Shown: in pieces, positions 689-25,499 of the stretch
Position numbering within the stretch: the first letter of the stretch is position 1
How the letters are laid out: every line of letters starts with the position of its first letter
IMG/VR virus record: IMGVR_UViG_3300037119_009677
Coordinates: 1-38,722 of that record
DNA: 38,722 bases
Reading direction: 5' to 3' (one strand)
Origin: a virus
Translations under genes and position numbers: made by a program
Notes under the pieces: generated by a model
Database searches by the model: none
The model's input: only the letters and a program-made list of their open reading frames with translations
What the model was told of the DNA's origin: nothing

Positions 689-719
689 GGGACGGTCCGA
701 CGTGCTCAGGGAGACGACC

Positions 720-1715: not shown

Positions 1716-1717
1716 CA

Positions 1718-2497: not shown

Positions 2498-2520
2498 ACA
2501 AGCTGCAAGGAGACAACACA

Positions 2521-6416: not shown

Positions 6417-6453
6417 GAGCTGGTCACGGAGGGGGAACAATGGCAAAGTATAG
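6238..6453 (+). CDS. Small cysteine-rich protein overlapping the primase-helicase end
   Basis: A 71-residue protein with cysteines arranged C-x4-C-x-C early and C-x2-C (LLCVVCGL) later, likely a zinc-binding knuckle. ATG 6238 has GGAAGG seven bases upstream. Its first 179 bases lie inside the primase-helicase frame, an unusually long overlap for this compact genome. The ordered cysteines and hydrophobic pattern here read as the true coding frame. It overlaps the next gene by 14 bases. Function unknown. Confidence 0.6.
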   Translation: MSSGDKASKKTRFEVWLRVECPSKECKCWTYIPAAALPSYLLCVVCGLRVSLRELAKVGESWSRRGNNGKV

Positions 6454-6721
6454 GAAGAAGCCGGTGGTCATAGAGGCTTTCGTGTGGACGGGGGATGAGA
6501 AGCAGACAGAAGACCCGGCCTGGATCAACGTGCCCGGAGTCGCGACGTTTGAGAACAGTGGCACGCCAGAAGTAAAGCTCAAGATACAAACGCTGGAAGG
6601 CGTGATGACGGCAAACCGCGGTGACTACATCATTCGTGGGATTAAGGGTGAAGTCTACCCTTGCAAGCCGGACATTTTCAACGCAAGCTACGAGCTCGTG
6701 CTCGAAGGGGATAATACCTGA
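6440..6721 (+). CDS. Conserved phage protein of unknown function
   Basis: A 93-residue protein beginning MAKYRKKPVVIEAF and ending near GDYIIRGIKGEVYPCKPDIF. I recognise this as a widespread small phage family, with the GD(Y/W)IIRG and YPCKPDIF signatures, but it has no established function. A strong GGAGGGGG ribosome binding site lies just before ATG 6440. It sits among replication and nucleotide-metabolism genes. The composition is alternating beta strands with one conserved cysteine. The family assignment rests on recall of the motif only. Confidence 0.8.
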   Translation: MAKYRKKPVVIEAFVWTGDEKQTEDPAWINVPGVATFENSGTPEVKLKIQTLEGVMTANRGDYIIRGIKGEVYPCKPDIFNASYELVLEGDNT

Positions 6722-6722
6722 C

Positions 6723-7079
6723 ATGGCCAAGACACCGAGCCGGATGGACCTGGACGCGCTCAGCCCGATCGCGTGGGTCCAGGAGGAGAGGCGCCGTCAG
6801 TACGAGGCGCGCGGGGACCAGGACCACAACCCGCTGAAGTGGCTGGCGGTCCTGGCCGAGGAGTTCGGGGAGGTGGCCAAGGCGCTCGAGGACGGCCATG
6901 AAGGCAAGCATGACCACCCGACCTACACGAACCAGCTGGAGTACGAGCTGATCCAGGTGGCGGCCGTGGCCGTCGCCTGGGTCGAGGCGATCAGGCGCGG
7001 CAACGACAGCAGCCTGTTCCCGTGGTGCGGCTGCGAGGAGTGCCCCATGGAAAAGAATAGCGAGGAGGCGGCGATATGA
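6723..7079 (+). CDS. MazG-like nucleotide pyrophosphohydrolase
   Basis: A 118-residue, mostly helical protein. WVQEERRRQYEARG is followed by LAVLAEEFGEVAKAL, which carries the ExxE metal-binding helix of the MazG/dUTPase all-alpha superfamily, and a second helix with ELIQVAAVAVAWVEAI. Such enzymes hydrolyse NTPs or dNTPs to monophosphates; in phages they are thought to clean up dUTP or noncanonical nucleotides or to lower host alarmone signalling. Here dUTP removal would feed dUMP to ThyX downstream; that link is inference. A cysteine-containing tail (WCGCEECP) looks capable of metal binding and is unusual for the family. The stop overlaps the next start (ATGA). Confidence 0.8.
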   Translation: MAKTPSRMDLDALSPIAWVQEERRRQYEARGDQDHNPLKWLAVLAEEFGEVAKALEDGHEGKHDHPTYTNQLEYELIQVAAVAVAWVEAIRRGNDSSLFPWCGCEECPMEKNSEEAAI

Positions 7080-7405
7080 CACACGACGAGTTCAGGCTGC
7101 TGCTGAGCGCCATGGAGGACGACGAACACGCTGTTGTGCTGGGAAAGGGCGAGGAGTACACCAGGGGGCAGAAGGACAGGCTCGCGTCGTTCTACGAGAT
7201 AGCCTCATTCGCCGGCGTTACGCCAAAACAAGTCTGCATGATCTTCATGACCAAGCACTGGCAGGCGCTGGCCCACTTCGTGGCCACCGGCACCACTAAG
7301 AGCAATGAGACCGTGGACGGGAGGATCATGGACCTGCGGGTGTACCTGGCCCTCATGCGGGCCTTGATCGCAGAGGAGGCCGAGACACGTGAATCCATCG
7401 GTTAG
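7076..7405 (+). CDS. Conserved small phage protein, DUF1599-like
   Basis: A 109-residue helical protein with the pattern KGEEYTRG...RLASF...GVTPKQV...KHWQAL...ETVDGRIMDLRVYLALMRALIAEE. This resembles a phage family related to DUF1599 / nucleotide-modification-associated domains: K-x2-EY, then RL-x2-F, then GRI-x-D-x2-VYL. ATG 7076 overlaps the MazG-like stop (ATGA), and the end overlaps ThyX by 17 bases, so it belongs to the nucleotide operon. No catalytic role is established. A function in dNTP metabolism is suggested only by its neighbours and family association. Confidence 0.72.
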   Translation: MTHDEFRLLLSAMEDDEHAVVLGKGEEYTRGQKDRLASFYEIASFAGVTPKQVCMIFMTKHWQALAHFVATGTTKSNETVDGRIMDLRVYLALMRALIAEEAETRESIG

Positions 7406-8138
7406 GCTCCTCGACAAGACGGGACAGCCCATGCGCGCCATGGCGCTGGCGGCCAGGCTCTGCTACACGCAGGGCATGACCATAGAGCAGGTCGACAAGA
7501 ACCTGTCAGACGAGCAGTGCGAGAAGCTGGTGCTGAAGGTGCTGGCCTCGCGCCACATGTCGGTGCTGGAGCACGCCACCTTCATGTTCGGGGTGGAGGG
7601 CGTCAGCCGCAACTTCAGCCACCAGATGGTGCGCCACCGGAACACCAGCTACGAGCAGCAGAGCCTGCACTACACGCTGGCCGGGCCGGACATGGAGGTC
7701 GCGGCCCCGTCGGGGCTGTCGGACGAGCAGAAGCAGCTGTGGGGCAGCGCCAAGGACGTGGCCTTTAAGTCGTACGCCGCCCTGCTGCAGACGGGCGTGC
7801 CGAGGGAAGAGGCGAGACACCTGCTGCCGAGCGGCGTCGAGACCAAGCTGGTCATGACGGCCAACCTGCGCCAGTGGCTGCACTTCGTGCAGATCAGGGC
7901 CTGCGTCGTCAACTGCCAGGAGATCCTGGTGGTCGCCCACAAGGTGAAGAAGATCCTGGAGGCAGAGCTGCCGATGCTGCGGCCGCACCTCGGGCCGACA
8001 TGCTGGACGGACGGGACGTGCCACGAAGGCAAGAAGTTCTGTGACGCCCCGTGGAGGGACAAGTGCGTGGTGAGTGGGATGGGAGTGGAGGAGCCTTATG
8101 TCTGGGAGCGTTCTAGACCTGAAGCACGTCCGGTCTAA
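7389..8138 (+). CDS. thyX: FAD-dependent thymidylate synthase ThyX
   Basis: This 249-residue enzyme makes dTMP from dUMP using methylenetetrahydrofolate, FAD and NADPH. The defining ThyX motif RHR-x7-S is present as RHRNTSYEQQS, followed by LHY. The LRQWLHFVQIR and CQEI segments also fit the family. GTG 7389 is chosen because the conserved beta strand VRLLDKTG starts four residues later, and GAGGAGG lies nine bases upstream. It overlaps both the preceding gene and the dCMP deaminase gene. Cysteines near the C-terminus (CWTDGTCHEG...KFC...KC) form an unusual extension that may bind a metal. Together with the deaminase it gives a dCMP-to-dTMP route independent of the host. Confidence 0.95.
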   Translation: MNPSVRLLDKTGQPMRAMALAARLCYTQGMTIEQVDKNLSDEQCEKLVLKVLASRHMSVLEHATFMFGVEGVSRNFSHQMVRHRNTSYEQQSLHYTLAGPDMEVAAPSGLSDEQKQLWGSAKDVAFKSYAALLQTGVPREEARHLLPSGVETKLVMTANLRQWLHFVQIRACVVNCQEILVVAHKVKKILEAELPMLRPHLGPTCWTDGTCHEGKKFCDAPWRDKCVVSGMGVEEPYVWERSRPEARPV

Positions 8139-8496
8139 GTACAAGGATCGCATGCTGCAAGTCGCCTTCGTGGTGTCCGGCTGGTCGCCGGAGCCTGAGG
8201 GGCAGCGCCACGGCTGCGTGCTGGCCGTAGACGGCAAGTACATCGTGGCCACAGGGTTCAACGGGCCAGATCGCTTCCACAAATGGCCGAAGGACGGGTC
8301 GCCCAGGGTGGTGCACGCCGAGGAGAACGCCATGCTGAACCTCAGGCTGGCCGGCGACATTCCGCTGGACCGCTGCGTGGCGTTCGTGACCAAGAAGCCG
8401 TGCGACCACTGCATGGAGCTGCTGAGGAGGGGAGGCGTCCTGTCGATATTCTGGCTGCAGGACGTGGGGGAGGACCGCGGGCAATGGACACGGTGA
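8098..8496 (+). CDS. Deoxycytidylate deaminase
   Basis: A 132-residue zinc-dependent deaminase. HAEENAML supplies the zinc histidine and catalytic glutamate, and PCDHCMELL supplies the two zinc cysteines of the CDA fold. The N-terminal GCVLAVDGKYIVATGFNGP matches the dCMP deaminase family. It converts dCMP to dUMP, the substrate of ThyX encoded just upstream. GGAGGAG precedes ATG 8098. The start lies 41 bases inside the ThyX gene and the end overlaps the Vsr-like gene by 13 bases, indicating tight coupling. An allosteric dCTP site cannot be judged by eye. Confidence 0.93.
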   Translation: MSGSVLDLKHVRSKYKDRMLQVAFVVSGWSPEPEGQRHGCVLAVDGKYIVATGFNGPDRFHKWPKDGSPRVVHAEENAMLNLRLAGDIPLDRCVAFVTKKPCDHCMELLRRGGVLSIFWLQDVGEDRGQWTR

Positions 8497-8903
8497 CTCC
8501 GGAGGTCAGGAGCCGCATCATGAGCCGAATCCGCGGCAAGAACACCAAGCCGGAGCTGAGGCTGCGCGGCGCCATGGCCGGCGGGGGAGTGTCTGGCTTC
8601 GAGTGCCACGCCGACGACCTGCCCGGCAAGCCTGACTTCGCATTCAGGTCCACCCGCACGGCCGTGTTCGTCGAGGGCTGTTTCTGGCACGGGTGCCCGG
8701 TCCACTACAAGGCGCCGAAGAGCAACGTGAGCTTTTGGGCCACAAAGGTGAAGAGGAACATGCAGAGGGATGGCGAGAACGAGACCAAGCTGCGCCTTAT
8801 GGGCTGGTCCGTTTACCGGTTCTGGGAGTGCCAGGTGAAGCACTCCGGCAAGCTGGCAGTCGCTGTGTCCATGGTGAAGAGGGCGACAGGCTATGCACGC
8901 TAA
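8484..8903 (+). CDS. Vsr-like (very short patch repair) endonuclease
   Basis: A 139-residue protein matching Vsr: MSRIRGKNTKPELRLR at the N-terminus, GKPDFAFRSTRTAVFVEGCFWHGC containing the catalytic aspartate and the conserved FWH, then KVKRNMQRD and LGW-like MGWSVYRFWEC. Bacterial Vsr nicks beside T:G mismatches created by deamination of 5-methylcytosine. No cytosine methyltransferase is visible in this genome, so the target is unclear; host-made methylation or general mismatch or branched-DNA cleavage are options. ATG 8484 overlaps the deaminase gene, and its end overlaps the next gene by 11 bases. Confidence 0.88.
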   Translation: MDTVTPEVRSRIMSRIRGKNTKPELRLRGAMAGGGVSGFECHADDLPGKPDFAFRSTRTAVFVEGCFWHGCPVHYKAPKSNVSFWATKVKRNMQRDGENETKLRLMGWSVYRFWECQVKHSGKLAVAVSMVKRATGYAR

Positions 8904-9153
8904 GAAGAGCGAGGCGGACCCGGTAGTGCCGATCGCAGAGTTGGAGACCGAGGGCATCGTCCGAGAGCGCGCCATCGTTGGGTTGCCGTACCACCTGTCG
9001 TTCGTGCTGGGAGGTTTACGCCACGAATGTGTGACAGTCTTCCTGGACGTGGACGGGGCCGTGCTGTCGGCTGGCATGGACGAGAGAGGCCTTATCGCGC
9101 CAGCCGGCGCGCGCTGGGTGGAGCATTTCAAGTGGCTAAGAAAAAGCGCGTAA
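8893..9153 (+). CDS. Hypothetical protein between Vsr-like nuclease and polymerase
   Basis: An 86-residue protein of unknown function. It has a charged N-terminus, a central hydrophobic beta-like stretch (HLSFVLGGLRHECVTVFLDVDG) and ends in a basic helix. It overlaps the Vsr-like gene by 11 bases and the polymerase gene by 22 bases, so it is embedded in the replication operon. No motif is recognised. It could be a polymerase accessory factor, but nothing in the sequence shows this. Confidence 0.65.
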   Translation: MHAKKSEADPVVPIAELETEGIVRERAIVGLPYHLSFVLGGLRHECVTVFLDVDGAVLSAGMDERGLIAPAGARWVEHFKWLRKSA

Positions 9154-10904
9154 AGCCGGCGTTCCCGCACGGGCGTGTCGTGCTTGACTACGAGACCAAT
9201 GACCTGCACCCCTACAATGGGGGGCGCGCGTTCATAGCCGGCGTCGAGGACGAGGCTGGCAACGTCATAAAGGCGCGACCCGGTGACCCCAACTGGCACA
9301 AGGTGGCTAAGGTCATCGAGGACCCGGCCATCGACAAGATTTCTCACGGTGCCCGCTTCGAGATCAAGCACAGCAAGCACCTGGGGCTGAAGCCGGCCGG
9401 GCGTTTCCACGACGCCATGGCCAAGGCCGTGCTCGTCGACGAGTACCAGCGAATCAACCTGGACTCGCTCTCCCGCCGCTGGCTGGGCGACGACACCAAG
9501 GGCATCGTGCAGGCCTGGATGAAGGCCAACGGGCCGAGGATCCGCCGCATGACGGGGCGCGAGCCGAACTACACCGACATCCCCAAGGAGCTGCTGGAGA
9601 CCTACCTGGAGGGAGACCTCGACAAGACGCTACGGCTGGACTGGCTGTGGCGTCCTATCGAGCAGGAGTTCCCGGAGCTGTACAAGATGGAGACGGACCT
9701 GGCCTGGGACGTGGCCGCCATGGAGGACATGGGCTTCCACATAGACATGCCGTATGTGCACCAGCAGCTGAGGGTGCTGCGGCCGCAGATGGACCAGATC
9801 CAACGCCAGATGCAGTCGATGGTGGGCGTGTCCTTCAACCCGGCCTCGCGGTTCGAGCTGGGGGACGTGATGATGGCGCTCGGGCTGGACACGGGCATCG
9901 TCAACAAGGACGGCACCATGAAGACTGACTTTAAGACTCTAGAGGCCATGGACTCGCACCCGTTCCTGGACCTGCTCATCCGCTGGAGGGGCCTGGCCAA
10001 GATCGTCGGGACGTATCTGATCCCGTTCACCCAGATGGCCGTCGGCGACGTCGTGCACGGCAGCCTGTGGCAGTACGGCCAGGACGAGGGCATCGTCACC
10101 GGCCGCTTCTCGTCGTCTGACCCGAACCTGCAGAATATCCCTGGCGGAGGCAGGTCCACGAACAAAGTATTGATCGAGCTCGGCCCGATCGTGCGTAGGG
10201 CCATCATCCCGCCGCCTGGCTACGACTTCATGTTCTTCGACTACAAGCAAATAGAGATGGTGATCTTCACCTGCTATGCCCAGGACCAGCGGGCCATGGC
10301 CGACCTTAACGCTGGCGTCGACCCGTACATCGCGCAGGGCAAGCTCCTTTATGGTCGTAACGCCTTCGAGGGGCTCGGCAAGGACACCTACAAGAGGAAA
10401 CGCTTCAACGCCAAGGAGCTCTGCCTGTCGTTGATCTACGGCATGGGCCTGAAGTCCATGGCGCGCCGCCTGAAGCTGCCGCTGAACGAGGCCAAGACCC
10501 TGCGCAACATGTACTTCGCGTCGTCGCCACAGACCAAGGAGTTCATGACTAGCACCATCCGGGACCTGCTCGTCTACGGGCACGTCAAGGACGTCTTCGG
10601 GCGGCACTACCACGTGCCCCAGGACCGTGGCTACAAGGCGGTGAACGCCAAGTGCCAGGGCGCGGCCGCCACGGTCATGAAGCGCGGGATCATCAGGGCC
10701 CGCCCGCTGCAGTCGCTGGGGTTCAAGCCGCTGGTGCCCATCCACGACGAGCTCATGGGCATCGTCCCGAAGAACAAGAAGCTGCGGGAGGAGATCGCCT
10801 ACGAGGGCCTGCGCCTGCTGCGTGATACCGACTCCTTCGAGGTGCCGATCGAGGCCGACGTGACCTGGTCGGACACCAACTGGGCGGAGAAGAAGCCGCT
10901 CTAG
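9132..10904 (+). CDS. Family A DNA polymerase with 3'-5' exonuclease domain
   Basis: A 590-residue PolA/T7-type replicative polymerase. Exonuclease motif I is LDYET (D19, E21) and motif III is YLEGD (Y158, D162). Motif II is altered: HGARFE has G73 and E77 where N and D are usual. Polymerase motif A is FDYKQIE (D370). Motif B is R424-x3-K428-x3-L432-x3-Y436G. Motif C is HDE (538-540). L432 aligns with Phe762 of E. coli Pol I; Leu at this site is a known viral variant linked to slower, more accurate synthesis. GTG 9132 is used, with GGTGGAG eight bases upstream. It ends tail to tail with the leftward block. Confidence 0.95.
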   Translation: MAKKKRVKPAFPHGRVVLDYETNDLHPYNGGRAFIAGVEDEAGNVIKARPGDPNWHKVAKVIEDPAIDKISHGARFEIKHSKHLGLKPAGRFHDAMAKAVLVDEYQRINLDSLSRRWLGDDTKGIVQAWMKANGPRIRRMTGREPNYTDIPKELLETYLEGDLDKTLRLDWLWRPIEQEFPELYKMETDLAWDVAAMEDMGFHIDMPYVHQQLRVLRPQMDQIQRQMQSMVGVSFNPASRFELGDVMMALGLDTGIVNKDGTMKTDFKTLEAMDSHPFLDLLIRWRGLAKIVGTYLIPFTQMAVGDVVHGSLWQYGQDEGIVTGRFSSSDPNLQNIPGGGRSTNKVLIELGPIVRRAIIPPPGYDFMFFDYKQIEMVIFTCYAQDQRAMADLNAGVDPYIAQGKLLYGRNAFEGLGKDTYKRKRFNAKELCLSLIYGMGLKSMARRLKLPLNEAKTLRNMYFASSPQTKEFMTSTIRDLLVYGHVKDVFGRHYHVPQDRGYKAVNAKCQGAAATVMKRGIIRARPLQSLGFKPLVPIHDELMGIVPKNKKLREEIAYEGLRLLRDTDSFEVPIEADVTWSDTNWAEKKPL

Positions 10905-15478: not shown

Positions 15479-15835
15479 TTAGCGTCCCCCCACGCGGGGG
15501 ACCCGCTGCTTCATGGCCACCCCGCGGATCTGAGCCTTGATGTCCTGGGGAAGGACGCGGTCGAACTCGGCCACCGCGCCGTCCACCCCCAGCTTGTGCA
15601 CGGCGCCGGCGATCTGCACGATGAGGGCGTCGTCGATCTGGTCCATGGGAAAGTCGCGCCCGGTGAACTTCTGCACGGCGGCGATGATCTCGGGGTCGTG
15701 CCTGAAGTAGTCGAGATCGTCGTCCGTCAGGTTAAACTCCTGGCGGGGGTCCTGGGGCGCCTTTGGGGACATGGCCGCCTGCGGGTTTACGCCCGGCTGC
15801 GGGATGGACCCGACCTGCTCCATTGGCTTCATCAT
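15479..15835 (-). CDS. Hypothetical virion-associated protein
   Basis: A 118-residue protein with a Pro/Gln/Met-rich disordered N-terminus (about 1-33) and a helical acidic domain (TDDDLDYFRHDPEIIAAVQKFTGRDFP...FDRVLPQDIKAQI). It overlaps the nozzle gene by four bases (ATGA) and sits immediately before the ejection proteins, so a small structural or assembly role is likely. No family is recognised. Confidence 0.6.
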   Translation of the reverse strand: MMKPMEQVGSIPQPGVNPQAAMSPKAPQDPRQEFNLTDDDLDYFRHDPEIIAAVQKFTGRDFPMDQIDDALIVQIAGAVHKLGVDGAVAEFDRVLPQDIKAQIRGVAMKQRVPRVGGR

Positions 15836-17517
15836 CGTCTTAGCTCCTGGCGGTGCAGCTCGACGGCGTACACCTCGAAAGTCTGCGCGGCCACGCTGTT
15901 GGAGAACCTGAACTGGATCGAGCGCCCGACCCTGCCCACTACGATCGGCTGTGACTTCACCCGCGTCCCAGTCCCCGAGGTCATGTCTATCGTGGTGCTG
16001 ACGAAGGTGCCCTCGTCGACGCTGACCTCGAAGGTAAGGTTCCCGGCAGACTGCTTCTTGAGGTACACGAATACTATACCGAATCGTTGCTGGTTGGAGT
16101 ACTCGAAAACCTTGCTTGAGAACGTAGCTACAATGGCCGAGGTCAGGCCGTCCGTGCTCCCTGTGTTGAGCTGCATGAGCCCCGGCGTCCCGCCACTCCA
16201 GCTGTTAACTCCGTAGAGGACGCCAGACCGGTAGGCGAAGTCCGAGACGATCGCAGGCGCCAGCTGGCTCCACTTCCACGGCGCGCCCGTCTTGTCCAAG
16301 ACATAGGTTAGTTCTTTGTGGGAGGAGTCGATGGACGACAGCGCGTTCGAGACCTGGAGCCAGTAGTTGCCGTCGACGATGATGGCCGCCGGCTCCGCGG
16401 TCACGGTGGGCACGTTGCCCCAGGCGAATGACCCGATGTTGGCGAACTCCTGGCGGATCCTGTCGTAGTCCAGGATCTTGGAAATAGCCCCGCCGCCGCT
16501 GTAGGCGTAGAAGCCCTTCTTGCCCAGCATGATGTAGCCGTTAGGCCCGTACAGCTGGAATGACTTCGGACTGTTGATGTTGAAGTCGTTCGGGGTGAAG
16601 ATCTGGGTCAACGTGTACGTGGGGTTGGCCGGGTCGAAGATATCGCCCGTCAGCTTCCAGGCCGTGTTGGTCTTGAAGATGATTATGGACTGGCCATCGT
16701 AGGCCAGCCCGACTATGGGGAAGCCGTCGTCCGGGTTCACATCCACGAAGTTAGAAGCCGGCCACGTGGTCGGGTCCTTGAGCGAGCACCAGGCAACGCG
16801 CGACGGGTTCGCTGCGGTGTTTGCGGCGAACGTGTAGTTCTTGTACGTCAGCGAGTAGGCTGCCTGTGGGAACGCGTCGACGTAGACCGCGTTGGCGCCG
16901 TTGAAGTAGACGGAGCAGCTGCCCTGCCCGCAGATCCAGGCTTTTGAGTTCTGGTCAGTGAAGCTCACCCGCTTCGTGGCCGCCCAGCCCGGCAGCAGGT
17001 TGTAGGACGACCCGGCGTTTAGCGCGCCGAAGTTCTGGGTCAGGGTCAAGTTCAGGTCGTCAGCTACCGACAGGACTATCCCGACCACCCCGCTTACGTT
17101 GAAGATAGCCCCGGCGCGCGCGGTTGTTAGGAATGACGTGCCCACCCCTACGACGTTGGGCGATGCCACAGCGGTGGTCACGGTGCCCGCCGTCAGCGTG
17201 TACATGCCGTTGACGTTGATCGAGTCCGACGTGAACATCAGAAAGTTGTTGGTGATGCCGGCCGACGCCAGGATGAGCAGGTTCTCGGTGCCGCTGAACA
17301 CCGAGGTGTGCAGCATGTAGCCGAACCACGCCCTGCTGAGGATGGTGTTCGTGGTCGACGTGCGGCTCTGCCCGAGGCGCTTCTGAATGGCCCCGTCGTC
17401 GTTCCACACATTGGCGTGCGTCGGCAGCGCCTTGGGGTCCAGGCGGTTCGGCGCAGTCAGGGTGTTCAGCCCTAGGCTGAAGTCCTGGAAAACATCGACC
17501 TTCTCTGTCTCTGCCAT
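15832..17517 (-). CDS. Tail nozzle/hub protein, beta-propeller type
   Basis: A 561-residue beta-rich protein. It begins with a FSLGLNTLTAPNRLDP segment and an NVWNDDGAIQKRLG motif. Later WCSLKDPTTWP...VDVNPDDGFPIVGLAYDGQSIIIFKTNTAWKL is the signature I associate with nozzle and stabilisation proteins (P22 gp10 or T7 gp12 type) and related beta-propeller stoppers of podoviruses. It would plug and extend the portal-adaptor channel. It lies directly downstream of the adaptor gene, as expected. The exact relationship to P22- or T7-type nozzles cannot be decided by eye. Confidence 0.75.
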   Translation of the reverse strand: MAETEKVDVFQDFSLGLNTLTAPNRLDPKALPTHANVWNDDGAIQKRLGQSRTSTTNTILSRAWFGYMLHTSVFSGTENLLILASAGITNNFLMFTSDSINVNGMYTLTAGTVTTAVASPNVVGVGTSFLTTARAGAIFNVSGVVGIVLSVADDLNLTLTQNFGALNAGSSYNLLPGWAATKRVSFTDQNSKAWICGQGSCSVYFNGANAVYVDAFPQAAYSLTYKNYTFAANTAANPSRVAWCSLKDPTTWPASNFVDVNPDDGFPIVGLAYDGQSIIIFKTNTAWKLTGDIFDPANPTYTLTQIFTPNDFNINSPKSFQLYGPNGYIMLGKKGFYAYSGGGAISKILDYDRIRQEFANIGSFAWGNVPTVTAEPAAIIVDGNYWLQVSNALSSIDSSHKELTYVLDKTGAPWKWSQLAPAIVSDFAYRSGVLYGVNSWSGGTPGLMQLNTGSTDGLTSAIVATFSSKVFEYSNQQRFGIVFVYLKKQSAGNLTFEVSVDEGTFVSTTIDMTSGTGTRVKSQPIVVGRVGRSIQFRFSNSVAAQTFEVYAVELHRQELRR

Positions 17518-17518
17518 T

Positions 17519-18430
17519 TTACCTGGGCTGCTGGTATGTCGTGGGGAACGGCAGGAAGCGCGAGGTGTTCTGGGTGTCCGTCGAGCCCAGCACCGGCATC
17601 CAGTCGCCGTTCGCGTTCTCGCTCTCGATCAGCTGCTGGATCCCGAACTCGTAGGCCTTCTTGAGGTCGTCCTGGTTTGGGTCGTTGAGAAACTTGTTGC
17701 CGAGCCACTCGGCCCCGTCGATCATGAGGTTGTGCTGCGGCACCGGCAGCTTCGGTATGTCCCCGTCGGCGGAGAGGTCCGGCAACTCCATGAAGTAGCG
17801 GAACTCGATGTTGTAGACGGCGTCGGCGCACGGGAAGAACCCCACCTGGCGCTGCGTGGCCGCCGTGGCGCCCGTGTCCGGGTCGTCCCGGAACGTGTAG
17901 TAGGCTGACGGCATGGACACCGTGTTGATGTCGGGCTGGTAGGTGTCCAGCGTCCACACGCCGAGGTTGGTGAGCTTAAGAGGCGTGTTGCTCTGGCGGG
18001 CGTCGTAGATTGAGAACACGTCGGCGGGCAGGTCGTAGTAGACCTTGCGCAGGGTGTAGGTGCCGGTGGTGAGCGCGGCGCCAGCGAAGGCCGGCGTGAT
18101 GGTCAGCGTCTGCCCGGCCACGACGGTGACCTCGTACCAGTTGGTGTCGCCCTGCAGCTGAATGAACGAGCGCTTGTCGCCAGCGGCGAAGGCCGTCGAT
18201 GTGCCCACCACGGAGGTGCCGCCGGCGCTGACGGCAACCGTGCCGGCCGTCTTGTCCACCTGGGTCTGCACGAAGCAGCGGGCGTAGAGCCACTCGAACG
18301 GGTAGCGCGACGCGATGTCGTTCATGGTGAGGTTCAGCCACCGCTTCAGGCGGGTGGCGTTGGCCGCGACCGTCTGGTCGATGTTGAGCCGGTCCGCAAG
18401 CTCCTGCTGGAGCACCAGGAATGTGGCCAT
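17519..18430 (-). CDS. Head-to-tail adaptor protein
   Basis: A 303-residue protein. The helical N-terminus (LQQELADRLNIDQTVAANATRLKRWLNLTMNDIASRYPFEWL) is typical of phage adaptor or connector proteins (P22 gp4 / T7 gp11-like). It is interrupted by a beta insertion (about 60-130) carrying an AGGTSVVGTSTAFAAGD...WYEVTVV...TITPAF pattern. The last third is helical again with HNLMIDGAEWLGNKFLNDP and a long amphipathic helix. It should bind the portal ring and carry the nozzle encoded next. The position and length are consistent. Confidence 0.75.
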   Translation of the reverse strand: MATFLVLQQELADRLNIDQTVAANATRLKRWLNLTMNDIASRYPFEWLYARCFVQTQVDKTAGTVAVSAGGTSVVGTSTAFAAGDKRSFIQLQGDTNWYEVTVVAGQTLTITPAFAGAALTTGTYTLRKVYYDLPADVFSIYDARQSNTPLKLTNLGVWTLDTYQPDINTVSMPSAYYTFRDDPDTGATAATQRQVGFFPCADAVYNIEFRYFMELPDLSADGDIPKLPVPQHNLMIDGAEWLGNKFLNDPNQDDLKKAYEFGIQQLIESENANGDWMPVLGSTDTQNTSRFLPFPTTYQQPR

Positions 18431-18778
18431 CTACTTGTCCCCCACGCACGGGTACTTCTGCTCGCACATCGCCGGCTCCCACGGGTTCTCCTCGTGGCAG
18501 ATCTCGTGTGGCAGGCAGGCCATGTACGACTTCCCCACGAAGATGTTGGCCTTGCGCCCGAACCCGCGCTGCACGTGGCACGCCCTCGGGTGGTAATTCA
18601 CCGGCTTGCCGTTGTCCGCCACCCTCGCCACCCTCTTGCAGTGGATCCCCACCGACATGTCGTCGCACGCCAGGACGTTGTAGCCCTTGTGCCTGAACCG
18701 GTAGCAGTCAGCGGCCTTGAACGACGGCGCAGACTGGCACCCGGACAGAACGAGGGCGACGAGGACGGCCATCCTCAT
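18431..18778 (-). CDS. Cysteine-rich lipoprotein with HExxH motif
   Basis: A 115-residue protein with a signal-peptidase II signal: a short hydrophobic start followed by LSGC, with lipidated C14. The mature part has eight further cysteines, suggesting disulfides in the periplasm or on the outer membrane. HEICH (91-95) matches the zinc-metallopeptidase signature HExxH; with so small a domain it may be a true minimal protease or a coincidence. ATG 18778 overlaps the upstream stop (ATGA). Alternatives are an outer-membrane spanin or a superinfection-exclusion lipoprotein. It lies among other exported proteins, not in the lysis cassette, which argues against a spanin. Confidence 0.72.
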   Translation of the reverse strand: MRMAVLVALVLSGCQSAPSFKAADCYRFRHKGYNVLACDDMSVGIHCKRVARVADNGKPVNYHPRACHVQRGFGRKANIFVGKSYMACLPHEICHEENPWEPAMCEQKYPCVGDK

Positions 18779-19479
18779 CGCTTCATCACGCTGAACGTCG
18801 CGTTGTAGTTGTTCGCGTTGACCGTCCCGCCGCCCGCCGCGTTCGAATAAGCCTTGCACACGACCGAGTCCGTGGCCACCAGCTCGTAGCCGGGCAGGAA
18901 CGCGGCCAGGGTGTTGCCCTCGGTGCCGGCCGTCCCCAGGTTGCCGTTGGCGCGCGCCTTGGCCGCCCCGTTGACCCAGATACTCGCCCCGGCGTTGTCC
19001 GTGACGACGCCCGCGGTCCATGTGAGCGAGCAGAACATGTCGTACGCCCCGCCCATCCCCGTGGCTATGACCACCGCGCTCGAGCTGTTGGTCTGGTCGA
19101 AGTTGATGTTCACGACCTTGTCGATCGTGTTCCAGAACACCGGCTGCTCCCCGCTGAACACCTTGGCCGTGGTCAGCCGCAGGATGGCCCGCGGCTGGCT
19201 CGGCACGAACAGCGCGCCGTTGGACCCCACCGTGAGGGTGGACCCGGACACGGACAGCGACCCGCCGAACAGCCCGCTCGTCGTGGTGATCGACGAGGCG
19301 CTGATGATGTTTCCGTTCGGCCCGGAAGCCGTGAACGACGCGTTGGTGATGGTGGACGCTCCGGTGAGGCTCACCGATGTAGGGGACGACGACGCGCTGG
19401 TCCCATTCTGCTTCATCGGCTGGGCCACGGCCAGCGACGGGCAGAGCAGGGACAGCGCCATCAGGACATGTATCTTCAT
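18775..19479 (-). CDS. Exported beta-rich protein, fibre/C1q-like C-terminal domain
   Basis: A 234-residue protein with a clear Sec signal peptide (MKIHVLMALSLLCPSLAVAQ, cleavage after AVA or AQ). Residues 25-100 are Ser/Thr/Gly-rich with beta-helix-like repeats (SLTGASTITNASFTASG...). Residues about 115-234 have the strand pattern of a C1q/TNF-like jelly roll as found at fibre tips: NFDQTNSSSAVV, GGAYDMFCSLTW, SIWVNG, FLPGYELVATDSVVCKAYS, ATFSVMK. A signal peptide on a fibre-like phage protein is unusual. It may decorate the host envelope rather than the virion. The fold call is inference from pattern. Confidence 0.68.
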   Translation of the reverse strand: MKIHVLMALSLLCPSLAVAQPMKQNGTSASSSPTSVSLTGASTITNASFTASGPNGNIISASSITTTSGLFGGSLSVSGSTLTVGSNGALFVPSQPRAILRLTTAKVFSGEQPVFWNTIDKVVNINFDQTNSSSAVVIATGMGGAYDMFCSLTWTAGVVTDNAGASIWVNGAAKARANGNLGTAGTEGNTLAAFLPGYELVATDSVVCKAYSNAAGGGTVNANNYNATFSVMKR

Positions 19480-19487
19480 GGTGGGCC

Positions 19488-19892
19488 TCACTTCAGCTGG
19501 GTGATGGTGACCCTGGTGCAGCCGCCGGAGTTCTGCGTCATGCACCAGGTCTTCCTGGTCGAGGGCGGGACGGCGTAGTAGAGGCCGATGCCGGCAGGGA
19601 TCTCGCGCCCGTACCAGACCGACGTCACGGCCGTCGACAGGGCGACGTCCTGCCCGCAGTTGATCGTGCTCGTGCTCACCGCCGGGTTGTAGACCTCGAT
19701 GGCGAACGCGCCCGACAGCGTCCCCGACGACGTCGCCGCCGTCACGTCCGTCCTGCCTCCCGACGCGCACAGGTTGATCGTCTGCGTGATCGTCTGCGTG
19801 GTCAGGGCCACCTCGTGCACGTTCTGCACGTTGCTCTGCGCTGACGCCACTGTCCCCACTAAGGACAGCACCACGAATAGGACATATCTCAT
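19488..19892 (-). CDS. Small exported protein with paired cysteines
   Basis: A 134-residue protein with a Sec signal peptide (MRYVLFVVLSLVGTVASAQ). The mature part of about 115 residues is beta-rich and carries four cysteines (LCASGG, INCGQD, TWCMTQ, GGCTRV), likely two disulfides formed outside the cytoplasm. It ends VTITQLK. It sits directly upstream of the exported C1q-like protein and downstream of a small virion-like protein, with a four-base overlap at 19889-19892. Function unknown. It may be a decoration, receptor-masking or envelope protein. Confidence 0.68.
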   Translation of the reverse strand: MRYVLFVVLSLVGTVASAQSNVQNVHEVALTTQTITQTINLCASGGRTDVTAATSSGTLSGAFAIEVYNPAVSTSTINCGQDVALSTAVTSVWYGREIPAGIGLYYAVPPSTRKTWCMTQNSGGCTRVTITQLK

Positions 19893-20195: not shown

Positions 20196-20648
20196 TTAGG
20201 CGTGCTTCGAGCGAGTCTTGTGGATCTTCAGAGCGTTCTCGGTGTTGAAGTCGGCGTTGCAGGTCTCGCAGGCGAAGCCCTCGGCCGCCTTCGCGGCCGC
20301 CTTGCCCTCCCACTCCACGACCGGCACGTCCTCGGCGTCGACGGACCAGCCGTCGCTGTTCTTCTCCGACACGGGCAGCGCCTCCGGCATCGGGCGGTCT
20401 CGGCGCGCGCCGAGGAAGGCCTCGCGCTGCGCGTTGTTCCACGCCTCCTGGTCCGGCCCGCGGTCGAGGTTGAGCAGGACCGGGTACACGGCCCCGCCCT
20501 CCACCTTGGTCTTGAACGGCACCAGGCACCCGGGCAGCTTGGTGAAGCGGATGACCCGGTCGACGTTGCCAGCCCCCACGAGGATGACGGTCCCGTCCAC
20601 GGCTGCGACCTTGTTGCGGAGGCGGCTATCGGCGCTAAGCGTTGACAT
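20196..20648 (-). CDS. Hypothetical protein with C-terminal C2H2 zinc finger
   Basis: A 150-residue protein. Residues 1-60 are beta-rich (GTVILVGAGNVDRVIRFTKLPGCLVPF); a charged linker follows; residues 125-149 form a textbook C2H2 finger with C127-x2-C130-x12-H143-x5-H149 and the expected Phe and Leu core. Such classical fingers are rare in phage structural operons. It could bind DNA, tether a partner or act as a folding clip. ATG 20648 has a GGAGAG ribosome binding site, and it overlaps the upstream glycosyltransferase gene by 14 bases. Confidence 0.72.
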   Translation of the reverse strand: MSTLSADSRLRNKVAAVDGTVILVGAGNVDRVIRFTKLPGCLVPFKTKVEGGAVYPVLLNLDRGPDQEAWNNAQREAFLGARRDRPMPEALPVSEKNSDGWSVDAEDVPVVEWEGKAAAKAAEGFACETCNADFNTENALKIHKTRSKHA

Positions 20649-21498
20649 GTTCTCTCTCCTTTGTGTTAAGGTTCAGTTTTTGAAGCAAGACTTTCATGCG
20701 CTCGGCGTACGTGTGTGCCGAGACGGCGATGCGGCCGGCGTGGGCGATGGCCTCGCGCTCCTCGTGGTTTGTGAGCAGGCTGCGCGTGACTGCGGCCAGC
20801 TCGTCCAGGCTCGAGTAGCCCACGTAGTGCAGGCCGTCCACGAACCCCAGGCGCTCCATGTCCGGCACGCGGTCCGTCACCAAGCACGACCCGGAGCAGA
20901 GCGCCTCGAACACGCGCATGTTGGCGTCGCCGTTGATCGAGCGGTTGAAGACCAGCCTGGACTCGGCGTACTTCTTCGTCACTTCGTGGAATATCCGGTT
21001 GCCGAAGAATATCGGCCCGCGGCAGGCCTTGAAGAAGGCGTCCAGTGCCTCCACGCGCGGGCCGGCCAAGCCGTTGTGGAAGTTGCCGATGAAGCACCCG
21101 TCGTACTTCTTCTCCATCAGCCCCAGGCAGTGAATATTGGGGTCGCACCCGACGGGGTTCCAGTAGACGTCGTCGCGGCCCCAGTCCAGCGCCAGCCCGC
21201 CGTGGTGCGCGACAGAGACGCTGTCGAACCGGCCGTACCTGGCCAGCTCGATGCGCCAGTCGCTCTCGATGTGGGTGTCTATGCAGTAGTAGGCCGAGGG
21301 GTGGAGCTCCGGGTTCCAGGTGGTCTGGCGCTGCCCGTCGTCCACCTTGACGTAGAGGTCGTACCCGCCCTTCACCTCGTGGATCTTCTCCGGCAGCACA
21401 TGGTCCACCTCGTGGCCGAGCTGCCTGAACGCCTCGATGATGTAGACGCCGGTGCTGTCCGGCCGCACCCGCGTCTCCAGCGACACCATGACCCTCAT
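20635..21498 (-). CDS. Glycosyltransferase, CgeB-like (GT-B fold)
   Basis: A 287-residue protein. The C-terminal half matches the Glyco_trans_1_2 / CgeB pattern: FIGNFHNGLAGPR, FFGNRIFHEV, SRLVFNRSINGDANMRVFEALCSGSCLVTDRVPD, then GLHYVGYSSLDELAAV. The NMRVFEALCSG segment with its following acidic region is the nucleotide-sugar site of GT-B enzymes. It should transfer a sugar from an activated donor; the acceptor could be virion protein, host envelope glycan or DNA. ATG 21498 overlaps the stop of the bifunctional enzyme gene (ATGA). It is the third enzyme of the sugar cassette. Confidence 0.82.
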   Translation of the reverse strand: MRVMVSLETRVRPDSTGVYIIEAFRQLGHEVDHVLPEKIHEVKGGYDLYVKVDDGQRQTTWNPELHPSAYYCIDTHIESDWRIELARYGRFDSVSVAHHGGLALDWGRDDVYWNPVGCDPNIHCLGLMEKKYDGCFIGNFHNGLAGPRVEALDAFFKACRGPIFFGNRIFHEVTKKYAESRLVFNRSINGDANMRVFEALCSGSCLVTDRVPDMERLGFVDGLHYVGYSSLDELAAVTRSLLTNHEEREAIAHAGRIAVSAHTYAERMKVLLQKLNLNTKEREHVNA

Positions 21499-22817
21499 GC
21501 CGCCACCGCCACGCCGCCGGTCATGGTGACGTAGGGCACCTGGACCCGCTGCCAGTTGGCCGTCGCGGACACCATGAAGACGTAGCCCGGCTTCACGCTC
21601 TCGGTGCGGGTCACGGTGAAGTCGAGCGCCCCGAGCAGCGACGCTACGCTCTCCGGCGTGAAGGCGTGGACGTGCGACGGGTCGACGCTGATGGCCTCGC
21701 AGTATCTGTAGTCGGGGCACAGGATCACGAGCTTGCCGCCGAGCTTGAGCACGCGTTTCCACTCCAGTATGGCCTTGACGGGGTCCACGATGTGCTCCAG
21801 CAGGTGCTTCGCGAGGATTCCGTCGACCGTGTGGTCCTCGAGCGGGAGGCTGAGCACGTCGGCCTCCAGGTCGGCGGCCGCGGGCTTGTCGGAGTTCGCG
21901 CCCACGCCCACCTGGCCGTTCCTGCGGATGTCGACCCCGACCATTTTCTCGTGGAGCTTCTGCCCGCCGCAGCCGAGGTCGAGCACCAGCCTGCCGTCGA
22001 GCAGCGGCTCCAGCTCGCCCAGCGCCAGCTGCTCCTCGCTCGCCACGAAGTCGTAGCCGGAGTCGCCGCCGGGCAGCTTGTGGTTCATGCAGTCGAACCA
22101 CGACTTGAAGCCGTGCTTCTGGATCAGCCAGGTGTTGATGGCCTCGCCCTGCGCCGGTGAGTTCCAGTACTCGCCGTAGATCTTCTTCCCCGTGACGCTG
22201 CAGAAGTGCAGCATGAACGCCCGGCGGCAGATGCAGATCTTGTAGCCGGCGGCCGTGAGGCGGATGGAGTAGTCCAGGTCGTCGCCGCCCGCCTCGCAGG
22301 CGTCCAGCGGGCCCATCTCCTGCACCACCTCGCGGCGGACCAGCATGCACATGCCCGAGAGGAAGGTCGTCTCGACCGCCGGCGGCAGCTTGACGTAGTT
22401 CGTGGTCTGGAAGCCCATGACGTTGTTGCTCGTCGGCCCCACGACCGCCACCTTCGGGTCCAGCTGGAAGCAGTTGAGCATCTTCGTCAGCCACCCGAAG
22501 TCGTGTGGCAGTATCTGCACGTCGTCGTTGAGCCACATGACGAAGGGCGCCGGGTCGTTCTCCATGACCCAGCGGACGCCCGCGTTGACGCCGTGCGTCC
22601 AGCCCAGGTTCTTCTCCTGCTGCAGGACCACCACGCCGCTCTCGGGGGGCACGTCGAAGCGCTGGTCACCGTTGTTGACCACGACGAGGCGCACGGGCTC
22701 GGCCGTGTTCTGCATGATGGACGAGATGCAGCGGTCGAGCACGTTGAGGTTGTTCCAGGTGACGATGACGATGTCGACCGTGGGCCTGGCCGTCTGGACG
22801 GACAGCGCTGTCTTCAC
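21495..22817 (-). CDS. Bifunctional family-2 glycosyltransferase fused to SAM-dependent methyltransferase
   Basis: A 440-residue fusion. Residues 12-215 are a GT2 (GT-A fold) domain: VDIVIVTWNNLNVLDRCI, LGWTHGVNAG and WLNDDVQ with D98-D99 as the metal and nucleotide-sugar site. GGDDLDYSIRL supplies the catalytic-base region. Residues 272-430 are a class I methyltransferase with motif I VLDLGCGG (278-285), GVDIR, and later AKHLLEHIVDPVKAI...RVLKLGGKLVI. It likely adds and methylates, or caps, a sugar. GTG 22817 overlaps the preceding stop (GTGA). Such fusions are known in surface-polysaccharide loci; here it is carried inside a late structural operon. Confidence 0.85.
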   Translation of the reverse strand: MKTALSVQTARPTVDIVIVTWNNLNVLDRCISSIMQNTAEPVRLVVVNNGDQRFDVPPESGVVVLQQEKNLGWTHGVNAGVRWVMENDPAPFVMWLNDDVQILPHDFGWLTKMLNCFQLDPKVAVVGPTSNNVMGFQTTNYVKLPPAVETTFLSGMCMLVRREVVQEMGPLDACEAGGDDLDYSIRLTAAGYKICICRRAFMLHFCSVTGKKIYGEYWNSPAQGEAINTWLIQKHGFKSWFDCMNHKLPGGDSGYDFVASEEQLALGELEPLLDGRLVLDLGCGGQKLHEKMVGVDIRRNGQVGVGANSDKPAAADLEADVLSLPLEDHTVDGILAKHLLEHIVDPVKAILEWKRVLKLGGKLVILCPDYRYCEAISVDPSHVHAFTPESVASLLGALDFTVTRTESVKPGYVFMVSATANWQRVQVPYVTMTGGVAVAA

Positions 22818-23569
22818 GCTGCCACCGCCAGCTTGTTCAGCTCGTCGATGTTGGCGACCGGCTTCGGGTAGACCTTGGCGAATTTCTCCTCGAGGCCGCG
22901 CACCTTGACGTAGTCGTGCTCCGTCGCCATCTGGGGCGGGCGTAGGTGCCCCACCTTGATGGCGGTGTCCATGACGATCTTTGCTCCCGCCTCGCCCTTG
23001 GCCTTGATGCAGAAGAAGATGTCCTCGCCCAGGTGGGTGTTGGAGAAGAAGCGCGGCTGCCTGATCTTCGCGATCGTGGCGACCCTGATGAGCACCACGC
23101 CGAAGCCCACCGCGTCGCACTCTACGACGGAGTTGGGCTCGTAGTCGGCGATGAACTCGTTGGAGATGCTCCTCTTGCCGTCGCCCTCGAACCAGCTCTG
23201 CTTCCACATGACCGGGTTGAACGGGTGGAGGCGCTGCGTGACCATTGGCGAGACGATGTCGGCGCCGGTGGCCTGCGCCGTCTTGAATAGGCGCTCGAAC
23301 ATGTCGCGGGGGACAATCTGGTCGTCGTCCACCATTAGGATGTAGTCCATCCCCTGCTCGACGGCCGCGGACGCCATCGCCTCGCGGGCGTAGTTCACGG
23401 CCATGCGGCCGGTGTTGCCGGTGAAGAACTTGAATTTGGAGCGGGCCTCGAGGCGCGCTAGCTCCATGTAGAAGTCAATGCGGTTGTCGAAGACCTGGCA
23501 GTCCACCAGGCCCGCGGACGGCTCGGACGTCATGACCTTTATGGTCGTAGTGTCTTCGAAGGGATTCAC
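22814..23569 (-). CDS. GT-A-type glycosyltransferase
   Basis: A 251-residue protein. TGRMAVNYAREAM is followed by DYILMVDDDQIVP (D81-D83), the DxD metal and nucleotide-sugar motif of GT-A enzymes. DAVGFGVVLIRVATIAKI and a THLGEDIFFCIKAK segment supply the acceptor-side acidic residues. It opens the three-gene sugar cassette. GTG 23569 is preferred because it overlaps the stop of the small upstream gene (GTGA), a pattern repeated throughout this genome. ATG 23608, in the same frame with AGGGAG upstream, is the alternative and adds 13 residues. Confidence 0.78.
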   Translation of the reverse strand: MNPFEDTTTIKVMTSEPSAGLVDCQVFDNRIDFYMELARLEARSKFKFFTGNTGRMAVNYAREAMASAAVEQGMDYILMVDDDQIVPRDMFERLFKTAQATGADIVSPMVTQRLHPFNPVMWKQSWFEGDGKRSISNEFIADYEPNSVVECDAVGFGVVLIRVATIAKIRQPRFFSNTHLGEDIFFCIKAKGEAGAKIVMDTAIKVGHLRPPQMATEHDYVKVRGLEEKFAKVYPKPVANIDELNKLAVAA

Positions 23570-23727
23570 AGCTTTCCCGCCAACTTCCAGTATAGAACCC
23601 TGATCCATTCCAGTAGGCTCCCTGAGGTCGCAAGTTTGATCTGGTGCCCGAGGCAAACGCCCCGGTCTATGTCCGTCCTCCGCAGCAGCCGCTGGTCCTG
23701 GCTGCACCGGTATAGGGGTAGGCTCAT
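23566..23727 (-). CDS. Small protein preceding the glycosyltransferases
   Basis: A 53-codon gene read directly from the gap. The product has the pattern YRCSQDQRLLRR...GVCLGHQIKLATSGSLLEW...WKLAGKL, with C8, C25 and H28, and a basic, tryptophan-containing amphipathic C-terminus. I recall similar short phage proteins carrying a C-x-GH and a SLLEW helix, without known function. GAGGGG lies eight bases before ATG 23727, and its TGA overlaps the downstream GTG start. The coding frame is open and has plausible residue composition throughout. Confidence 0.62.
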   Translation of the reverse strand: MSLPLYRCSQDQRLLRRTDIDRGVCLGHQIKLATSGSLLEWIRVLYWKLAGKL

Positions 23728-23746: not shown

Positions 23747-24172
23747 TTACAGCGCGCGGATGAAGCCGCGCCAGTACCCGACGCCGGACGTGGCGTTGTC
23801 CATGACCATGATCGGTCCGAAGGCGAAGGACTGACCGTTGGAGTGGAACGACGCCTGACCCGCGACCGGACCGACGATCATGCCGGCCGCGGAGGCCGAC
23901 ACGTTGACGGCGACCTGCCCCGCGATGGAGGCCCGGAAGCCGTAGACCTGCACCAGCTGGTACGCGTCCGCCGCCGCGTCGGCGTCGATGACGCCGGCGA
24001 AGAGGTTGAGGTTCGACGTCGCGGGCTTGTTGAAGGCGTTCCCGAGGGACGCCGCCGCGACGATCGACTCCCAGCACACGAGGGTGTTGCCCACCGTGGT
24101 GCCGGTGCTGACGTTCTGCCCGATCACGAACACCTTCTCGGCGTCCGTCCGATTCAGCTGTTGCAGTAGCAT
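23747..24172 (-). CDS. Putative head decoration or minor capsid protein
   Basis: A 141-residue protein, Ala/Gly/Ser/Val-rich and beta-patterned: GNTLVCWESIVAAASLGNAF, VIDADAAADAYQLVQVYGFRASIAG, then SFAFGPIMVMD. It follows the capsid protein and a small beta protein in the late operon, so a capsid decoration or head-completion role is likely. No family is recognised. Confidence 0.6.
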   Translation of the reverse strand: MLLQQLNRTDAEKVFVIGQNVSTGTTVGNTLVCWESIVAAASLGNAFNKPATSNLNLFAGVIDADAAADAYQLVQVYGFRASIAGQVAVNVSASAAGMIVGPVAGQASFHSNGQSFAFGPIMVMDNATSGVGYWRGFIRAL

Positions 24173-24245: not shown

Positions 24246-24521
24246 TTACGCGCTGATGATGCTGAACGTCCCGGCCGTGACGTCGGCCGAGTTGTAGACC
24301 GTCAACGTCACGATGCCCGCCGTTCCGGCCGGCGAGACCGCCACCGCGGGCTGGTACTCCCCCGAGGTGATGTTGGGAAGGAACTGCGCCTGGTACACCT
24401 TCCCGGCCGCCAGGGTGAGTGTGCCGGCCGCGTCCGCCTGCGCCCCGGTCCAGTCCCCGACGGTCAGCCGCAGGTTGCCCCCGAGGGAGCAGGACCTGAC
24501 GTTCGAAGTCGCGAATGCCAT
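24246..24521 (-). CDS. Small beta-rich head protein
   Basis: A 91-residue protein immediately downstream of the major capsid gene. The pattern is LRLTVGDWTG...AGTLTLAAGKVYQAQFLPN, then VAVSPAGTAGIVTLTVYNSADVTAGTFSII, an all-beta sandwich-like composition. An AAGGAGGGG ribosome binding site precedes ATG 24521. Its position suggests a decoration (cement) protein on the capsid surface; a strong ribosome binding site fits a high-copy product. Confidence 0.62.
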   Translation of the reverse strand: MAFATSNVRSCSLGGNLRLTVGDWTGAQADAAGTLTLAAGKVYQAQFLPNITSGEYQPAVAVSPAGTAGIVTLTVYNSADVTAGTFSIISA

Positions 24522-24530
24522 GTCCCCTCC

Positions 24531-25499
24531 TTAGGCAGTGATGCCCGTCAGCTTTCCGAGCCGGCGGATGTTGTCGGAGGCCAGCTGGCCGGCCCAGAGG
24601 ATCTGGGCGGTCTTCGCGTCCTGGTTCTCCGGCTTGATGAACGGCGTGGTGATGAAGTTCGTGCCCTTGGAGGTCACGAGCTTCAGCGAGTCGGACGACA
24701 GCATGAACAGCGTGCCGGCGGGAGTGTTCGGGTCGTACGTGAACGTGGCGCCCTTGTAGCGCAGGTTCTCGAATCCGGCCCCGGCCATCTTCTCGTCGGT
24801 GAAGCGCTGCTGCGGCTGGAGGGCGGCCTCGTAGAACTGATAGGCCGTCTGATCCGAGCAGATGAAGTCCGGAGCCCCGCCCGAGAGGCTCTGGTTGCTG
24901 ATGTTGTTGTACAGCGCGCGCATGTCGGCGAGGCCGCGGGCAGCGAACGAGCCCGAGGCCGTGACCTGCGCCTGCCACCAGCTGTTGGACGACTTCGCCA
25001 CGTTGCCGATGGACGTTGAGGCGTCCACTAAGGTAACGAGCGTGTTCATGTTGGTGCCGGTGACCGCCGACGCCCACATGTCGATGTCCAGCTTGTCTCG
25101 CAGAGACATCTCGGCCTGCTTGATCTTCGACTCGAGGATCTTGATGACCGCGCTGTCCCCGACGTTCTGGATGCGCTCCTCGAGGCCGCTGATCGTCACC
25201 GTCGCCGCGTACTGGGACCAGATGTACTGCGCGGCCGTGAGGCCTTCCTGGGGCGTGACGTCGATGATGCCGTAGCCCGAGTAGGACTTCGCGGTCGTGT
25301 TCTTGCCGTACATCAGGGGCACGACGAGCGACGCCCCGCCGTCTTCCGTGATCTTCGCCTTGCTCTTCAGCCACATGAAGAGCGGGATCTTGGTGAAGAT
25401 GTTGTCTGCGAACTTCTTGCGCACCGCCGAAAGCGTGGTCGATAGAAGAGCGTCGACGTTGCTCGGGCCGTACGTGAACAGCTGTCCGGGAACTGCCAT
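24531..25499 (-). CDS. Major capsid protein, HK97-fold
   Basis: A 322-residue protein in the classic place after the scaffold gene. The N-terminal arm (LSTTLSAVRKKFADNIFTKIPLFMWLK), followed by GGASLVVPLMYGKN, resembles capsid proteins of short-tailed phages with a separate scaffold. QNVGDSAVIKILESKIKQAEMSLRDKLD is the spine helix. GGAPDFICSDQTAYQFYEAALQP and later KGATFTYDPNTPAGTLFMLS form the A-domain pattern. GAGGAAAC precedes ATG 25499. No protease gene is seen, so uncleaved assembly on a scaffold is likely. Confidence 0.85.
   Translation of the reverse strand: MAVPGQLFTYGPSNVDALLSTTLSAVRKKFADNIFTKIPLFMWLKSKAKITEDGGASLVVPLMYGKNTTAKSYSGYGIIDVTPQEGLTAAQYIWSQYAATVTISGLEERIQNVGDSAVIKILESKIKQAEMSLRDKLDIDMWASAVTGTNMNTLVTLVDASTSIGNVAKSSNSWWQAQVTASGSFAARGLADMRALYNNISNQSLSGGAPDFICSDQTAYQFYEAALQPQQRFTDEKMAGAGFENLRYKGATFTYDPNTPAGTLFMLSSDSLKLVTSKGTNFITTPFIKPENQDAKTAQILWAGQLASDNIRRLGKLTGITA

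Follow-up and report, generated by a model that had tools for sequence, protein, structure and literature searches.

In the mycobacteriophage Corndog (cluster O), an O-methyltransferase and glycosyltransferases (GTs) are encoded between the portal and protease genes, among the structural genes (PMC4351075), and the capsid proteins of Che8 and Rita have been reported to be glycosylated, as cited in PMC11256854. In chlorovirus PBCV-1, the A064R protein combines two rhamnosyltransferases and a methyltransferase, which assemble the terminal part of the capsid glycan and carry out its 2-O-methylation (PMC9614988). In STIV, the virus-encoded GT A197 is essential, and the coat protein is glycosylated (PMC10551542). 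In the present study, we analyzed a viral record from IMG/VR with a length of 38,722 bases (the window), which carries on its minus strand a cassette of a 53-aa metal-knuckle-like protein, a GT-A enzyme, a GT2-methyltransferase (GT2-MT) fusion, and a GT-B enzyme. Virion glycosylation by phages and viruses is already known, and the cassette probably belongs to it in a new arrangement.

As in Corndog, several GTs and a methyltransferase are placed among virion structural genes (PMC4351075); unlike the window, Corndog has separate genes, and neither a GT2-MT fusion nor a knuckle protein was described there. At the sequence level, a tblastn search with the fusion gave no match in mycobacteriophages at E 1e-5, and the one weak phage record was not a mycobacteriophage. 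Like the fusion, PBCV-1 A064R (with A061L) joins a GT and a C-terminal SAM methyltransferase in one polypeptide (PMC9614988), but it comes from a eukaryotic algal virus, has two GT domains plus the methyltransferase, and has a known sugar specificity, and we claim no homology. STIV A197 (PDB 2c0n) has the closest fold to the GT-A family of the window (Z 19.6), but it is a stand-alone minimal GT of an archaeal non-tailed virus with 19% identity over the aligned residues, and its acceptor, like that of the GT-A of the window, is a presumed one. The gtr seroconversion clusters of temperate phages resemble the cassette in that their GTs are phage-encoded. Unlike in those clusters, the GtrA family (PF04138) and two common integrase families (integrase and resolvase) were absent from the record, no clear membrane segment was seen in the four cassette proteins, and the GTs are situated inside the structural operon, as in virion-glycosylation systems of the mycobacteriophage type.

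The minus-strand structural operon runs from the terminase and portal to the major capsid protein (MCP) and on to tail and virion proteins (15832-18430, PHROG). The cassette is thus located between capsid and tail genes, as a sequence-only reading had proposed. From head to tail (23727 to 20635), its four genes are joined by start/stop overlaps (GTGA, GTGA, and ATGA), in agreement with the three coupled enzyme genes and the preceding 53-residue protein of that reading, and the next gene (start 20648) again overlaps the end of the GT-B gene. The G+C content of the cassette was level with that of the neighboring genes, giving no sign of recent import. The features are listed in Table 1.

Table 1. 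Genes of the head module, the cassette, and the adjoining gene, in head-to-tail order (positions of the window).
Feature	Position	Strand	Basis
Major capsid protein (MCP), heading the module tied to the cassette	24531..25499	-	PHROG 9953 major head protein, 5.3e-56
Conserved 91-aa head-module protein	24246..24521	-	66-71% identity, same place, in the two closest relatives
Predicted capsid decoration protein, 141 aa; candidate acceptor	23747..24172	-	AlphaFold model and structural matches
53-aa metal-knuckle-like protein, C-x2-D...C-x2-H, Trp-rich C-terminal tail	23566..23727	-	59 distinct homologues
GT-A glycosyltransferase, GTG start	22814..23569	-	PF00535, 1.9e-5; invariant residues; family model
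GT2 (about 12-235) and class I SAM methyltransferase (about 272-405), 440 aa	21495..22817	-	PF13641, PF08241
GT-B glycosyltransferase, CgeB-like C-terminal domain, 287 aa	20635..21498	-	PF13524, 8e-20
150-aa protein, C2H2-like zinc finger at the C-terminus	20196..20648	-	PF12171, 2.3e-4; 56-58% identity, same place, in L004 and L005

Several other genes of the window were observed in passing. The zinc-finger segment of the 150-aa protein (20196-20648, minus strand), whose gene start overlaps the GT-B stop, reads FACETCNADFNTENALKIHKTRSKH. Three successive late genes on the minus strand (19488-19892, 18775-19479, and 18431-18778) have signal-peptide-like or lipoprotein-like starts (MRYVLFVVLSLVGTVASAQ; MKIHVLMALSLLCPSLAVAQ; MRMAVLVALVLSGC), and the product of 18775-19479 has the largest proportion of Ser/Thr/Asn (0.315), with a C-terminus that looks C1q-like by eye. 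An early block on the plus strand (1-10904) encodes an ERCC4 nuclease, a PD-(D/E)XK nuclease, an AAA_24 ATPase, a Toprim primase, ThyX, a Vsr-like endonuclease, and a family A DNA polymerase.

The GT-A enzyme matched PF00535 with 25.1 bits, just above the curated gathering score of 23.3. In the 264-aa numbering, the previously noticed DDD motif was located at residues 94-96, and Arg75, Asp94-x-Asp96, Gly194-Glu195-Asp196, Asp214, and His221 were invariant in 48 of 48 homologues. We modeled the family with the L006 protein as the first row and the window protein within the alignment; the stand-alone knuckle proteins were left out of the folding alignment, as mixing misaligned them. The model showed a GT-A fold (pLDDT 90), and after STIV A197 its structural matches were LH3 (Z 17.6), Mimivirus R699 (16), and COLGALT1 (15). 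LH3 and COLGALT1 are enzymes that add sugars to protein side chains, although a modeled fold in common with protein-modifying GTs does not prove a common acceptor. An alternative GT-A start at ATG 23608 was disfavored, because the similarity upstream of 23569 stems from the overlapping 53-aa frame.

Most of the 59 distinct members of the 53-aa family carry C-x2-[C or D] followed by [C or H]-x2-H, with a tail rich in Trp. In the window, the motif is CSQD...CLGH, in which Asp occupies one ligand position, and the protein gave no Pfam match. In three loci (L006, L145, and L057), this protein forms the N-terminal domain of the GT-A itself, and the model of the fused protein reached a pLDDT of about 85-90 over the knuckle and >90 across most of the enzyme. 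The simplest reading is that the 53-aa protein is a putative adaptor for the GT-A, with metal binding suggested by its ligand-like residues. It was also considered as a modified peptide (a glycocin-like precursor), and this was rejected on the grounds that its conserved residues are Cys/His/Asp and Trp and that it is an enzyme domain in the three loci.

In the fusion protein, the GT2 domain (PF13641, residues 12-205, 4e-13, 50.4 bits) and the methyltransferase domain (PF08241, residues 279-365, 2e-12, 47.9 bits) both scored above the cut-offs, and they lie within one open frame with their motifs intact, including LNDD and the VLDLGCGG recognized earlier. Residues Asn97-Asp98-Asp99, Asp179-Asp180, and His204 of the GT2 domain and Gly282, Asp296, His338, and Glu341-His342 of the methyltransferase domain were invariant in 49 of 49 homologues. 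The methyltransferase domain was carried by 52 of 61 GT2 copies, was missing from 8, and was a separate frame in 1; methylation thus appears to be modular. The GT-B enzyme matched PF13524 with 71.7 bits (cut-off 25), and Arg12, Asp53, Asp74, His76, Arg82, Gly138, Arg195, and Glu198 were invariant in all 50 homologues. The Pfam matches therefore bore out the family assignments made from sequence (GT-A, GT2-methyltransferase, and CgeB-like GT-B). Inactive DxD or SAM sites in homologues would have spoken against a working cassette, and this objection fails since the catalytic residues of all three enzymes were invariant in 48-50 homologues. Judged by their sequences, the three enzymes look active.

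For the 141-aa protein upstream of the cassette, an AlphaFold model was built from 68 homologues (pLDDT 82, pTM 0.79). The best structural match was the Haloferax tailed virus 1 (HFTV1) protein (Z 13.4), followed by T1/FCWL1 (about 11), Pam3 (10.5), TW1 (9.1), the phi29 head-fibre base (8.3), and lambda gpD (6.0); capsid decoration or stabilizing proteins made up almost all of the good matches to solved structures. Together with its place right after the MCP, the modeled fold predicts a capsid decoration protein. Capsid decoration proteins face outward on the phage head, and the protein would therefore be the most natural acceptor of the cassette. Ser82 and Ser111 were conserved (94% Ser/Thr) and offer a lead as candidate acceptor residues. 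A literature search on decoration proteins that carry glycans gave no relevant paper. In L079 (7458-8974; same contig as L160), the decoration-protein gene was observed in three tandem copies just ahead of the cassette. The sequence-only reading had described the virion proteins as Ser/Thr/Asn-rich; the share was indeed 0.20-0.32 in the head, tail, and exported proteins versus 0.13-0.14 in GT-A and GT2-MT, but this enrichment proves nothing alone.

The distribution of the cassette was surveyed in deposited phages and in IMG/VR. A tblastn search of about 50,700 deposited phages revealed no relative of the whole GT2-MT fusion, with partial and weak matches for GT-A and for the fusion of a relative. 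Single-protein IMG/VR scans with GT2-MT or GT-B found nothing, and those with GT-A and MCP recovered syntenic relatives with enzymes of 54-57% identity. An alignment-based scan yielded 60 viral loci and a few contigs from metagenome-assembled genomes, including Nitrososphaeraceae and Bacteroidales bins. A search for the cassette in related phages had been suggested previously, and it was answered by >60 distinct IMG/VR contigs with the same gene order, which is far beyond chance. In the HMM-annotated loci, one order was repeated: terminase, portal, MCP, decoration gene, knuckle, GT-A, GT2-MT, GT-B, and tail genes.

Positions were counted in 66 non-redundant loci with a strong GT-A. The MCP and decoration genes were upstream of GT-A in 61 of the 61 loci with 2.5 kb of upstream DNA, one small gene (decoration) separating the cassette from the MCP. 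The median gap from the decoration gene to GT-A was 206 nt (61 loci), and the knuckle gene was adjacent in 50. GT2 came next after GT-A (median overlap 12 nt), with GT-B also present, in 51/51 loci with 3 kb downstream, and a tail gene was reached in 32 of the 37 loci with 6 kb. GT2 and MCP served as baits, so their presence is partly due to selection; gene order and spacing were not used in this way.

Relatives carry further genes in the cassette slot, namely a DegT aminotransferase and WbqC (L145), an NAD epimerase (L106), a UDP-glucose dehydrogenase (L023), the rhamnosyl O-methyltransferase RMNT_CmcI immediately after the fusion (L055), and, in others, additional GTs and methyltransferases. 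The slot looks like a variable glycan locus, of which the initiating end (knuckle and GT-A beside the decoration gene) is most constant. Several individual loci deserve mention in their own right. In L007 (13899-15005), a methyltransferase with a kinase-like (Bud32/APH-like) C-terminus lies between GT2-MT and GT-B. L008 (11879-14436) has a different cassette in the same slot, consisting of a radical SAM/SPASM protein, a methyltransferase, a 93-aa zinc ribbon, and a GT-A. In an otherwise different environmental phage (L246:5505-8112, MW202711), a single GT-A-like gene is flanked by those for the major capsid protein and tail tubular protein A, a placement like that of the cassette but with one enzyme. 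Two contigs with MCP and GT2-MT were binned with ammonia-oxidizing archaea (L093, Nitrososphaeraceae; L096, Nitrosotalea). Archaea may be among the hosts of the cassette viruses, unless the binning is wrong; the nearest decoration fold is also from an archaeal tailed virus.

To follow the cassette in a set that was not chosen by it, we used 115 non-redundant contigs from two MCP-alignment scans. Both GT-A and the decoration type were present in 46 contigs, neither in 66, and only one of them in 3. On the MCP tree (111 rows), all cassette bearers fell within a single deep clade, where they made up 45 of the 55 rows. Three changes are required to explain this distribution, and they can be read as a gain and losses. 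The two traits changed together nearly every time, but the sign test on these 3 independent changes gave p 0.25; the association between cassette and decoration type is real, yet it rests on just three independent changes. In addition, a profile-profile comparison detected a distant homologue of the decoration protein at the corresponding position of cassette-less relatives (probability 91%, E 9e-7), which indicated that this protein can do without the cassette. For both reasons, co-occurrence, at first taken as evidence of an enzyme-acceptor pair, was downgraded to a supporting observation. The MCP gene itself was found in separated pieces in L007 (8925-10693), L057 (6718-8462), L064 (5929-7604), L079 (4587-6857, with a LAGLIDADG-like frame between the pieces), and L030 (9597-10776), probably owing to introns or inteins in the capsid gene.

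Collectively, we consider it probable that the cassette is a virion-glycosylation set that is expressed with the head and tail genes and acts in the host cytosol, where it assembles a short glycan on a structural protein. The GT-A, aided by the 53-aa metal-knuckle protein, which in some loci is part of the enzyme as its N-terminal domain, would attach the first sugar to the protein; the GT2 domain would attach a second sugar, which the fused methyltransferase would then methylate, presumably on an oxygen; and the GT-B may attach a further or branching sugar. We infer the order of these steps, and likewise the identity of the sugars. The likeliest acceptor would be the decoration protein just upstream or the MCP itself. 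No nucleotide-sugar synthesis gene was recognized in the window, so the sugar donors would be supplied by the host. For this reason, and given the GT2 copies that have no methyltransferase, the term "complete pathway" used in the sequence-only reading was too strong. Its proposal of virion modification, in turn, was strengthened by the conserved active sites, the lock to the capsid and decoration genes across a deep clade, and the sugar-synthesis genes of relatives. Against it, enzymes of a late operon could have other targets, and the genes that follow in the window include three with signal-peptide-like or lipoprotein-like starts. A more specific reading is possible and is offered tentatively: in a deep clade of uncultured tailed viruses, the cassette and the decoration protein could form a near-core, ancient, position-locked module in which the knuckle serves as a specificity subunit that brings the initiating GT-A to the decoration protein, making up a dedicated cytosolic protein-O-glycosylation system that includes its own acceptor.

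Within virion glycosylation, the sugars could be placed on tail or fibre proteins instead of the head and thereby tune adsorption. The tail genes come after the cassette, and the highest Ser/Thr/Asn share belongs to the 18775-19479 protein; however, linkage to the MCP and decoration genes was tighter than that to the downstream tail gene, and the variable genes were inserted on the downstream side of the cassette. We therefore regard this sub-case as rather unlikely. A further possibility is that the enzymes act on the host surface, changing the LPS, the capsule, or some other glycan of the envelope at a late stage of infection, for example against superinfection or the sticking of progeny to debris. 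O-antigen work commonly involves GT2 and GT-B enzymes along with the methylation of sugars, the WbqC-type and DegT-type genes of relatives also occur in O-antigen loci, and the exported-looking genes lie downstream in the window. In L004 and L005, however, where the cassette is retained, these genes were not seen in the interval that leads from it to the tail gene, and the position of the cassette is locked between decoration and tail genes across the deep clade. With the missing GtrA and integrase families and the lack of clear membrane segments described above, the host-surface alternative, which had been left standing beside virion modification, was weakened, and we consider it improbable.

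Glycosylation of phage DNA, in which a hypermodified base and a GT would shield against restriction, is more improbable still. GTs that modify DNA are well known from phages, and the record has ThyX (PF02511, 1.9e-47), a nucleotide-metabolism gene; however, the thymidylate-synthase-type family (PF00303, ThyA), to which a hydroxymethylase would belong, was absent from the record (which may be incomplete), the cassette is located in the structural operon outside the replication block, and the closest GT-A folds act on proteins or glycans. That the genes are degenerate, inactive passengers is hardly credible, since despite divergent sequences and occasional split copies (L079) the catalytic residues were invariant at often 25-55% identity and the coupled starts were retained.

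To our knowledge, virion glycosylation has been demonstrated in only a few phages. Virion glycosylation by this cassette would be a conserved and widespread part of head building in a large group of environmental viruses. Dozens of environmental viruses that are only distantly related have it at this position, which indicates that it is apparently a long-standing component of particle building and not a stray gene. The cassette offers a candidate acceptor (the decoration protein), a candidate adaptor (the knuckle protein), and a putative methyl cap, and a compact cytosolic set for protein glycosylation could also serve glyco-engineering. Co-expression of the four or five genes would make it possible to test the role of phage glycans, the way in which the first sugar reaches its protein, and the reason for methylating it.
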